From Halobacteriales archaeon SW_10_66_29 (GTDB lineage: Archaea; Halobacteriota; Halobacteria; Halobacteriales; Haloarculaceae), in NCBI GenBank assembly GCA_003022845.1, contig PXSF01000016.1, positions 1 to 45,625 of the forward strand: DNA of 45,625 bases, given 5' to 3'. A model generated the notes under the pieces. That model did no database searches. It saw only the letters and a list, made by a program, of their open reading frames with translations, and was not told the origin of the DNA. Below, one piece after another: positions 25,767-29,996 of the stretch (position 1 is the stretch's first letter; the number at the start of each line of letters is the position of its first letter). The position numbers were made by a program, and so were the translations under genes.

Positions 25767-26018
25767 GTGGGCACCTCCTTCTCAAGTCTGCGGACACGAT
25801 CTACGGCGTTCCGACTGGATGAGGATGTCTACGAGCGGCTCAAGTCCGAAAAGCGGGACGACGAGACGTTTTCGGAGGTCGTCAATCGGCTCATAGGTGA
25901 CTGGTCGCTGCTCGATCTGGCTGGAACTGCGACCGAAGCGGAGACAGCCCGCCACAGAGAGATCCTCGAAGCAGCCGAACAGAACGCAACGCAGGACCGC
26001 GAGGGGCTGCTGGAGTAG
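25767..26018 (+). CDS. VapB-type antitoxin (ribbon-helix-helix, DUF217-like)
   Basis: 83 aa from GTG 25767. The core FRLDEDVYERLKSEKRDDET FSEVVNRLIG is the typical haloarchaeal DUF217/VapB-family antitoxin DNA-binding segment. The acidic C-terminal arm normally wraps the toxin. The leader before FRLDED (about 15 residues) is longer and less typical than usual, so the true start or N-terminus is uncertain. It is followed 17 bases later by a PIN-domain toxin start, giving the expected antitoxin-first order. Confidence 0.75.
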   Translation: MGTSFSSLRTRSTAFRLDEDVYERLKSEKRDDETFSEVVNRLIGDWSLLDLAGTATEAETARHREILEAAEQNATQDREGLLE

Positions 26019-26035
26019 TTCGGGATCGAGCGGGA

Positions 26036-26164
26036 GTGATCCTGGACACCGATTTTCTGATCTCGCTCAGGGACGGGGACGACGGTGCAGTTGAACTCGC
26101 AGCTGAACTCGAACAGTCGGCAGTCCCCCGACGTATTCCGAGCATCGTCCTCGCTGTGCCATAG
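26036..26164 (+). pseudogene. truncated VapC (PIN-domain) toxin
   Basis: A GTG-started frame reads ILDTDFLISLRDGDDGAVEL AAELEQSAVPRRIPSIVLA then two residues and TAG at 26162-26164. LDTDFLI carries the first PIN catalytic Asp, and IPSIVLA leads to where the next conserved acidic residue (E of LAE) should be. About 90-100 further residues of a normal VapC are absent, and the CRY-DASH promoter begins immediately after. The product cannot be an active nuclease, so the upstream antitoxin is effectively solitary. Confidence 0.7.
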
Positions 26165-27564: not shown

Positions 27565-27601
27565 GCTGGAGGGTGCAGCCGGGATGTTCAGGATCGCGTG
27601 T

Positions 27602-27760
27602 GAACTACCCTTGCCTACTCGCCGCCGTTGGCGGCTCCGTGAGGCAGGGGCTTCCTGGTTCAACGACGCGCTTTGCAGACACAACCACAGTGTCCACAGG
27701 GAGCGCAGTCTCCACAGGCGTACCTTCGGAGTGACCCACTCCTAGTTTGGCGAGTCCGCG
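27602..27760 (-). ncRNA. omega-RNA (reRNA) region at the right end of the TnpB element
   Basis: Downstream of and overlapping the tnpB 3' end. The minus strand reads GAAGCCCCTGCCTCACGGAG, then a GCCGCC-AAC-GGCGGC hairpin, then GAGTAGGCAAGGGTAGTTCA, which pairs back over CCTTGCC. This is the usual haloarchaeal form of the terminal hairpin of TnpB guide RNAs. The guide would be read from the flank immediately beyond 27600 (minus-strand CACGCGATCCTGAACATCCC). The 5' limit of the RNA is a guess. Confidence 0.6.
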
Positions 27761-28864
27761 AAGAAGAATGTTCCATGCCGCGTTTGCATCCCTGTCCGCC
27801 TCGAAGCCGCAGGCAGGGCAGGAATGTTCACGCACCCAGAGCGGTTTGTCTGTTTCCACGCCACAGGACGCACACTCTTTGGTGGTGCCATTTGGGTCAA
27901 CCTTCACAAAGTGCGCTCCTTCGCGTTTGCACTTGTGTTCGAGCATCAAGGTGAATGTATTCCATGCGGCTGAGGCCGTGTTACGGCTGTTGCCCGGCGA
28001 TTCCAGCATCCCTTTCACGTCGAGGTCTTCGACGGCCACGAGGTCGTACTCCTGAGCGTAGTAGTTCGAGAGTTTGTGCAGGAAGTCACGCCGCTTGCGC
28101 TTGATGTCGAGATGACACTCGGCAACTGTCTGCCGCTGTTTTTCCCAGTTGTTCGACCCATGCTCTTTGCGCGAGAGGTTCCGTTGCTCTCGTTCGAGCC
28201 TGTCGCGTTCGTCCGCGAGGTCGAGTGAACCAACTGCTGTGCCGTCAGTATCGTGGGTATACTTCAGAATACCCACGTCGATGCCAATCATATCGTCGGC
28301 GTCAATATCCTCTATCGACGGTTTGAGTGGTTCCTCTTTGTCGTCAACAGCGAAGGAGGCGTACCACTCGCCAGTCGGTTCTTTCTTGAGTGTGACTTCT
28401 TTGACCTTTTCATCGTCGGGGATTTGTCGGTGGCACTCAATGGGAATATCCGCAAGTTTCGACAGCGAGAGCACAGTCTGACCGTTCTTGTTGTCGAACT
28501 CGAAGCCAGACTGGACGTAGGTGAAACTGCGGAACTCTCTGGGCGCTTTCCAGTTGAGGCTCCCGACGTTGTAGCCCTTGTCTTTCAGTTCAGACAGTGC
28601 CGTGATACTGTCTTCAATCCGCATGACTGCGGCCTGTGCAACTGTCGAGTACAGGTCATTCAATTCGTCCCACCAGTCTTTGAGGTCGGTGAGTTGGTCA
28701 CGGACTTGTCGCACTCGTTGATTGAGTGTTCCGGCTGATTCGGGAATCTCGTTAAACTCACCGAGCGCGTGGTTGTAGAGTTGCCTACAAGTGTCCCGGT
28801 GGTAATCCAACAGCTCGCGCTGTTCGGCGGTTGGCTTGAGCCGGAACCTGTAGGCGTAATGCAT
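27605..28864 (-). CDS. tnpB: TnpB RNA-guided nuclease (IS200/IS605-IS1341 type)
   Basis: 419 aa, full length. The RuvC-like site is complete: D196 in MIGIDVGILK, E279 in LVAVEDLDVKGM, and the DRDANAAWNI motif (D357/D359). The zinc ribbon has C331, C334, C349 and C352 (CASCG...CPACG). The N-terminal helical/WED region starts YAYRFRLKPTAEQRELLDYH. Intact catalytic residues argue for an active guided nuclease rather than a nuclease-dead TldR-type repressor. There is no tnpA, so the element is non-autonomous for transposition. A small ribbon-helix-helix gene ends 3 bases before the TnpB start, forming an operon, and an omega-RNA-like hairpin overlaps the 3' end. Confidence 0.95.
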   Translation of the reverse strand: MHYAYRFRLKPTAEQRELLDYHRDTCRQLYNHALGEFNEIPESAGTLNQRVRQVRDQLTDLKDWWDELNDLYSTVAQAAVMRIEDSITALSELKDKGYNVGSLNWKAPREFRSFTYVQSGFEFDNKNGQTVLSLSKLADIPIECHRQIPDDEKVKEVTLKKEPTGEWYASFAVDDKEEPLKPSIEDIDADDMIGIDVGILKYTHDTDGTAVGSLDLADERDRLEREQRNLSRKEHGSNNWEKQRQTVAECHLDIKRKRRDFLHKLSNYYAQEYDLVAVEDLDVKGMLESPGNSRNTASAAWNTFTLMLEHKCKREGAHFVKVDPNGTTKECASCGVETDKPLWVREHSCPACGFEADRDANAAWNILLRGLAKLGVGHSEGTPVETALPVDTVVVSAKRVVEPGSPCLTEPPTAASRQG

Positions 28865-28867
28865 TAG

Positions 28868-28990
28868 CTATGGCTCACGTTGTTCGATAAGCTCATCCAG
28901 TTTCTCTTGGACGAACGAGGAGAGGTTCAAGTGGTTCTCCTCGACCCACTCGGCTTGATCTTCACGGATTGTAATATTCTTCCGCTCCAC
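28868..28990 (-). CDS. small ribbon-helix-helix protein upstream of TnpB
   Basis: 40 aa from GTG 28988-28990 to TAG at 28868-28870. The peptide VERKNITIREDQAEWVEENH then LNLSSFVQEKLDELIEQREP has the strand-helix-helix layout and the RxDQAEWVEEN and LSSFVQEKLD wording of RHH/CopG-like regulators. It lies three bases before tnpB and shares its promoter (strong TATA-like tract 29008-29021), so it is likely co-expressed and may regulate the element. It is too short to be caught by most gene finders. Confidence 0.75.
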   Translation of the reverse strand: MERKNITIREDQAEWVEENHLNLSSFVQEKLDELIEQREP

Positions 28991-29007
28991 AGTGTGTGTT
29001 ATGCGCG

Positions 29008-29021
29008 TTATATGTATAAAC
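29008..29021 (-). promoter_or_regulatory. strong TATA-like promoter of the RHH-tnpB operon
   Basis: On the minus strand TTTATACATATAAC is centred about 27 bases before the GTG of the RHH gene, fitting leaderless transcription and supporting that start codon. Confidence 0.65.
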
Positions 29022-29082
29022 GTATCGGTTCGTGGGCCTGTGAGCCAGCAACAGGAAAGTGCAAAAGAGACAAAGACGGCGC

Positions 29083-29154
29083 TGTATCCCCTCCCTACTG
29101 CGCTCCTCGGTCGCTCCGCTCCCTGCGTTGCTCCTTGAGGAAGGGGGGCTTAGC
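29083..29154 (-). ncRNA. orphan omega-RNA-like hairpin
   Basis: The minus strand reads TAAGCCCCCCTTCCTCAAGG, then an AACGCAGGGAGCGGAGCGAC arm, then CAGTAGGGAGGGGATAC. The outer arms CCCCTTCCTC and GTAGGGAGGGG pair around an inner GGAGC/GCTCC-rich hairpin. The layout and AAGCCCC lead-in match the terminal hairpin of the TnpB element 1.4 kb away, but no tnpB precedes it, so it looks like a relic right end of another element or a free-standing guide-RNA source. Confidence 0.5.
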
Positions 29155-29319
29155 GCCTGCTATTAGCTAAAAAAGAGAGCCTGAACCGAGTCTCGTGAAT
29201 TCGACCCGTGGTCAGTAGAGGGTACGCACGTCCCGCGAGAAGTGGGAACCTCTATGAAGTCTATCAGAAAGCCGGTAAACCATGCAGAGGGTGTATGCAG
29301 CAGGAAACACAACTTATCG

Positions 29320-29739
29320 TCAGTAGGTCTGGATGTGGGCGACAGTGTCCTCATACTCACTCCCGTCTAAATCCTGCAAGAGATTCCCATCGGCGGTGTA
29401 GGCTGTCGCATCCCGTTCGACGGCGAGCGCGACGTAGGCAGCGTCGTAGGCCGTGATGTCAACGGTGTTCGTGATCTCCGCGATGGGGCCGACTGACCCG
29501 AACGAGACGAGTTCGATACCGTAGTTGTCGATCGAGTTTGTAGCCTCCTGGAGTCGTTCGCCATCGTAGTAGCCGCTGTAGTTGAGTGCATTGACCGCCT
29601 CGAAGGGCATGAGAGCCGGTGCGCACAGGTCGTGTTTGCCGTTGAGGAAATCGTCACGAAGTGCTCGGGCCTGTTCGTGATGCTGCTCGGGAATGTACCA
29701 CTTGACGACAGTGCTGGTGTCGATGACGATGTCGGCCAT
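29320..29739 (-). CDS. vapC: VapC toxin (PIN-domain ribonuclease)
   Basis: 139 aa. A PIN-domain nuclease that typically cleaves tRNA or rRNA when freed from its antitoxin. Acidic site residues are visible: D in MADIVIDTSTVVKW, E in ALMPFEAVNALNYSG, D in DITAYDAAYVALAVE and D/N in ATAYTADGNLLQDL. Length is normal and the frame intact. The start overlaps the antitoxin stop (TGATG). Confidence 0.88.
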   Translation of the reverse strand: MADIVIDTSTVVKWYIPEQHHEQARALRDDFLNGKHDLCAPALMPFEAVNALNYSGYYDGERLQEATNSIDNYGIELVSFGSVGPIAEITNTVDITAYDAAYVALAVERDATAYTADGNLLQDLDGSEYEDTVAHIQTY

Positions 29740-29996
29740 CAGGGTCGCTCCTCGCTGTATCGGGTATCACGGAACTCCCGAATCTGTTCTGCTGTGTTCG
29801 TCGTCGCCGCCTCGTCGGCATCGATGGCACTGCTCAGTCGCTCGCTGGTCGCAACTGCGTGGGCGACATTCCGTGATTCCAGACTGTGTAGTTCCTCCTT
29901 GATGTGGTCACGGAGCACTGCACTCCAGTTTATTTCGTCGTGTTCTTCCATCCGTGCTTTCACTTCGTCGGGGACACGGAAACTGACACTTCCCAT
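29739..29996 (-). CDS. vapB: VapB-type antitoxin (ribbon-helix-helix)
   Basis: 85 aa. The N-terminal MGSVSFRVPDEVKARMEEHD EINWSAVLRD is a clear RHH DNA-binding domain. The C-terminal half is helical and acidic, suited to binding the toxin. It is translationally coupled to vapC. A TATA-like ACTTATGC about 28 bases upstream and an imperfect palindrome GTGCATGTAATACAC just before the ATG suggest autorepression by the VapBC complex. Confidence 0.85.
   Translation of the reverse strand: MGSVSFRVPDEVKARMEEHDEINWSAVLRDHIKEELHSLESRNVAHAVATSERLSSAIDADEAATTNTAEQIREFRDTRYSEERP

Follow-up and report, generated by a model that had tools for sequence, protein, structure and literature searches.

The window analyzed here is a 45,625-nucleotide stretch of DNA from Halobacteriales archaeon SW_10_66_29 (contig PXSF01000016.1). 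It contains an IS1341-type element of the IS200/IS605 family that lacks tnpA and holds, in the slot directly upstream of tnpB, a gene for a 40-amino-acid predicted ribbon-helix-helix (RHH) protein. The element, its two open reading frames (ORFs), and the associated features are listed from the left end to the right end.

27600..29167, minus strand: whole element, delimited by conservation profiles at both ends; left border uncertain by a few bases
29168..29171, minus strand: candidate transposon-associated motif (TAM) or target motif TTTA beside the left end; TTTA is conserved there across elements
29088..29158, minus strand: left-end conserved block AGGCGCTAAGCCCCC with an imperfect subterminal hairpin sequence, the hairpin judged by eye
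29031..29046, minus strand: block GGCTCACAGGCCCACG, found upstream of all three partner types described below and taken as the upstream edge of an exchangeable promoter-plus-gene cassette
29015..29020, minus strand: TATA-like box TTTATA, located 25 bases upstream of the GTG start; same position in relatives
28990..29016, minus strand: predicted operator for RHH, made up of three tandem 9-bp units TACATATAA / CGCGCATAA / CACACACTG, recognized by 9-base periodicity
28868..28990, minus strand: RHH protein ORF, 40 amino acids, GTG start, TAG stop; supported by the ORF, profile matches, and conservation
27605..28864, minus strand: TnpB, 419 amino acids, uninterrupted, ATG at 28864; catalytic residues and zinc ribbon intact
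27602..27654, minus strand: hairpin at the 3′ end of the predicted omega-RNA; overlaps the stop codon of tnpB; from alignment folding
27580..27599, minus strand: predicted guide, the flank directly after the right end; conservation is lost beyond 27600, and the guide role is assigned by analogy with known TnpB systems

The RHH frame ends 3 bases before the tnpB ATG, and an earlier note on this DNA had rightly read this spacing in the sequence and assigned the promoter to the RHH frame. A GTG start is used by 107 of 119 RHH genes. In haloarchaea, a TATA box about 25 bases before the start codon is typical of leaderless transcripts, and a leaderless rhh–tnpB transcript is expected here. RHH profile matches are present in 152/392 haloarchaeal genomes. 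The earlier note had proposed searching such genomes for short RHH frames just upstream of tnpB, and 126 of the 131 haloarchaeal matches read with their flanks immediately precede tnpB in the same orientation, with gaps mostly of 3, 0, −4, or −1 bases; the other five comprise one at a contig end, two with a tnpB remnant, and two with no tnpB nearby. A separate scan of named genomes placed 72/80 RHH genes adjacent to tnpB, and of the 8 others, 4 lie at contig ends; the two samples share organisms and are therefore not fully independent. Halobacterium salinarum DSM 3754 (locus L306) is among the genomes with an adjacent pair. The RHH core shows a ratio of nonsynonymous to synonymous substitution rates (dN/dS) of ~0.11 vs. 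0.22 for TnpB, and 15 columns are invariant among 35 diverse RHH members. Conserved position, purifying selection, and recurrence exclude a chance frame.

Outside this sample, a few diverged RHH copies stand beside TnpB in other members of the phylum (e.g., locus L261, gap −4). One genome from another class of the phylum (G423) holds about 14 RHH-family copies (L246–L257), several beside diverged or decayed TnpB, and 9-bp-like repeats lie upstream of some of them. No RHH match was found in phage records.

The best Pfam match of the RHH protein is the antitoxin CcdA (E = 0.0047, 17.7 bits, below the 22.4 cut-off), a family that also matches 22/35 RHH members below cut-off. The match covers CcdA positions 5–39 of 71, and no further region follows the RHH domain in the protein. 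Its predicted layout of about 40 residues, one strand and then two helices, resembles that of minimal RHH autorepressors (CopG and the N-terminal domain of CcdA). CopG binds tandem operator sites over its own promoter, as is predicted for this RHH protein, which differs from these autorepressors in being archaeal, coupled to an RNA-guided nuclease, and without a toxin-binding tail. In public plasmid records, for which the gene table is incomplete, the RHH gene is mostly unannotated or labeled hypothetical; it is so short that most records leave it out, and it is thus easily overlooked, as the earlier note had anticipated, even in a model species like Halobacterium salinarum.

The predicted operator separates the TATA box from the start codon, its three 9-bp units occupying the 27 bases that lead to the RHH start. 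Across 12 haloarchaeal RHH operators <60% identical to one another and 2 from outside the class, positions at a distance of nine carry the same base at a frequency of 0.507 vs. 0.289 expected (p = 2e-4). DUF2080 and TnpA promoters have no 9-base period (0.195 and 0.17, respectively, vs. 0.436 for RHH promoters). Within the window, no other copy of the operator was found with up to 3 mismatches allowed, and none lies at either element end. Between RHH subfamilies A and B, the gene is 80% and tnpB 87% identical, whereas the operators are 58% identical, which is near-random; in subfamily B, TGTGTA sites accompany a β-strand Asn in 30/30 cases and a β-strand Thr in 0/16. The operator sequence thus appears to track the RHH β-strand subtype, an association for which shared ancestry may account.

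The slot upstream of tnpB is not reserved for RHH. Of the 134 TnpB relatives classified (≥59% identity), 55 have RHH in it, 37 the DUF2080 protein, 34 TnpA, and 8 nothing. Partner identity changes at least 26 times on the TnpB tree, partnerless genes not counted, and for RHH 9 changes are forced by well-supported branches. Each partner type has its own conserved promoter. In RHH/DUF2080 pairs whose tnpB genes are ~84% identical, the promoter/operator and small gene fall to the level of random pairs while the tnpB start (87%) and left end (88%) stay conserved; this contrast identifies a promoter-plus-gene cassette as the unit of exchange. According to the earlier note, its proposal would be refuted if most related tnpB genes lacked an intact RHH frame upstream, and the outcome is mixed: ~59% lack RHH, and nearly all of these carry DUF2080 or TnpA in the slot. 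RHH is therefore not a universal partner of tnpB but interchangeable with two others.

The DUF2080 transposase-associated protein (NCBIfam NF033496, Pfam PF09853) is a close parallel in arrangement: a small gene in the same slot of the same tnpB clade with its own conserved promoter. Its sequence is unrelated to RHH, and it is already a named family, whereas RHH has no family model above cut-off. DUF2080-type elements (e.g., L016–L031) carry TGTTGAAACA-like inverted repeats in their conserved promoter, which suggests that DUF2080 may also be an autoregulator.

TnpB passes the Pfam cut-offs for HTH_OrfB_IS605, OrfB_IS605, and Cas12f1-like_TNB and the NCBIfam cut-off for guided_TnpB. As the earlier note had held, it is catalytically intact, with RuvC residues D196, E279, and D359 and zinc-ribbon cysteines C331, C334, C349, and C352 assigned by motif; all catalytic and zinc motif checks were passed by 97/102 full-length TnpBs with RHH. 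By analogy with characterized relatives, this TnpB would cut DNA under RNA guidance. At the right end, alignment folding supports a hairpin of 15 pairs, 4 with compensatory changes, whose arms pair GAAGCCCCTGCCT with AGGCAGGGGTAGTTC-type sequence. The hairpin and its overlap with the tnpB end bear out what the earlier note had described, but the RNA, whose hairpin that note had called typical of haloarchaeal reRNA, matches neither sot0042 nor sot2652 nor any other relevant Rfam family at gathering or permissive thresholds.

Conservation profiles define the element borders. The right end at 27600 is TAGTTCAC, beyond which conservation among 181 related elements drops to none; the profile of 197 related elements places the left end near 29167. 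Of the interval 27600–29021 given in the earlier note, the right end therefore stands, whereas the left misses ~145 bases. The block at 29088..29158 is common to RHH-, DUF2080-, and TnpA-type elements, and TnpA-bearing relatives have matching ends. No tnpA adjoins tnpB, in agreement with the earlier note; a partial TnpA lies at a contig edge in the same genome. TnpB is absent near the orthologous photolyase locus in 11 relatives with that locus, where the intergenic DNA has diverged and does not fix the exact empty site.

Two neighboring loci resemble toxin–antitoxin pairs. A probable VapBC-type pair adjoins the element at 29320–29996 (minus strand), with a PIN-domain protein at 29320–29739 and an upstream 85-amino-acid antitoxin-like ORF at 29739–29996 that has no Pfam match. 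At 25767–26164 (plus strand), just before a photolyase-like gene, a VapB-like 83-amino-acid ORF is followed by an apparently truncated PIN ORF, possibly a broken toxin–antitoxin pair.

Taken as a whole, these observations are probably best explained by the RHH protein acting as a dedicated autorepressor of an rhh–tnpB–omega-RNA operon, in the place of tnpA. The earlier note had suggested a small DNA-binding partner that either autoregulates the element or forms an addiction-like unit with TnpB, but it mentioned neither the operator nor the exchange of partners. An operon with probable autoregulation is well supported because of strict adjacency, the promoter 9-bp repeats, the subtype-tracking operator, and strong purifying selection; the addiction-like unit gained no positive evidence, and the protein has no tail that could bind a toxin. 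In the proposed mechanism, rhh and tnpB would be transcribed together from one leaderless promoter, and RHH dimers, by binding the three tandem operator repeats, would repress this promoter and with it rhh, tnpB, and the omega-RNA. Repression would keep TnpB and omega-RNA low in an established host, with a burst on entry into a repressor-free cell or on a change in copy number. Guided by the right-end RNA, TnpB would promote retention of the element by cutting empty donor sites. Movement, if it still occurs, would depend on TnpA encoded by relatives that have the same ends; such mobilization in trans is plausible. Gene order, conservation, intact catalytic residues, element ends, the hairpin, operator periodicity, and partner exchange are observed, whereas we infer the RHH fold and dimerization, DNA binding, repression, the burst on entry, RNA-guided cutting by this TnpB, and the mobilization.

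Several observations weigh against autorepression or narrow its reach. AlphaFold monomer models of RHH are one long helix of moderate confidence (predicted local distance difference test 72–75 in two predictions, from 6 and 35 sequences), and PDB sequence searches returned no solved relative; because the monomers are one helix and CcdA scores fall below cut-off, the RHH fold and its dimerization are predicted from the sequence pattern only. The association between β-strand and operator has too few supported independent changes on the short-gene tree, so shared ancestry could produce it. Some TnpBs of the clade are partnerless, including the nearest TnpB relative in the same genome (L175, G000:C60; 77% identical), which has no small partner gene upstream; the repressor is therefore not essential to every element. 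Promoter binding may in principle activate rather than repress.

Other roles for the small gene were weighed against autorepression. An addiction or toxin–antitoxin unit, in which RHH binds and restrains TnpB and its loss frees a harmful nuclease, is unlikely. Antitoxin-before-toxin gene order and the CcdA match would fit it, and a DUF2080-type antitoxin has been validated against a nuclease toxin (PMC10440598), but this protein stops with its RHH domain and has no C-terminal toxin-binding region to follow it, which makes an antitoxin role less likely. The same TnpB clade is also found with DUF2080, TnpA, or no partner, arguing against a dedicated protein contact, and TnpB activity is normally set by the guide RNA. 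That RHH mainly regulates transposition, or serves as an end-binding accessory of TnpA supplied in trans, is quite improbable: its position in the tnpA slot and the shared ends with TnpA-bearing relatives agree with such a role, but the conserved repeats sit at the promoter, with no second operator copy at either end in the window. We give very little credence to a passenger or leader ORF retained mainly for translational coupling to tnpB. Coupled genes typically have such tight or overlapping junctions, but the low dN/dS and invariant columns show protein-level selection, and the operator varies with protein subtype.

TldRs offered another candidate identity for TnpB itself. Their defining feature is loss of the RuvC catalytic residues; because D196, E279, and D359 are intact here, the TldR reading is ruled out. 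Related to TnpB, TldRs work as transcription factors guided by RNA (PMC13418256), and they share with this element a TnpB lineage tied to transcriptional control; the difference is that TnpB here retains the catalytic residues and regulation probably falls to a separate protein.

Haloarchaeal TnpB elements without tnpA and with 3′ RNAs are known (PMC3119063, PMC8303175, PMC12558985). With the IS200/IS605 elements of IS1341 type that carry omega-RNA (sotRNA), the RHH–TnpB unit shares the TnpB RuvC domain and zinc ribbon, subterminal palindromes, an RNA overlapping the tnpB 3′ end, and the lack of tnpA in most copies; it differs in having RHH, with an operator of its own, where tnpA would sit and in an RNA that the Rfam sot0042 and sot2652 models do not recognize. 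No description of such a unit was found in a search of open-licence literature on TnpB with ribbon-helix-helix, CopG, or DUF2080.

Many TnpB elements, especially haloarchaeal ones, lack tnpA. For control of their nuclease, a dedicated repressor that is coupled to tnpB and can be swapped could account for low levels of TnpB and gives a testable model of induction on entry; such a repressor would mark a step from transposon accessory toward self-regulated nuclease unit. More tentatively, and with the odds somewhat against it, haloarchaeal TnpB elements in general may swap tnpA for either of two small, unrelated repressors that bind DNA (RHH or DUF2080), each with its own operator, and become self-regulated RNA-guided retention units that fire in repressor-free cells. 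If true, this would be a general mobile regulatory cassette, comparable to the controller proteins that time restriction enzymes.
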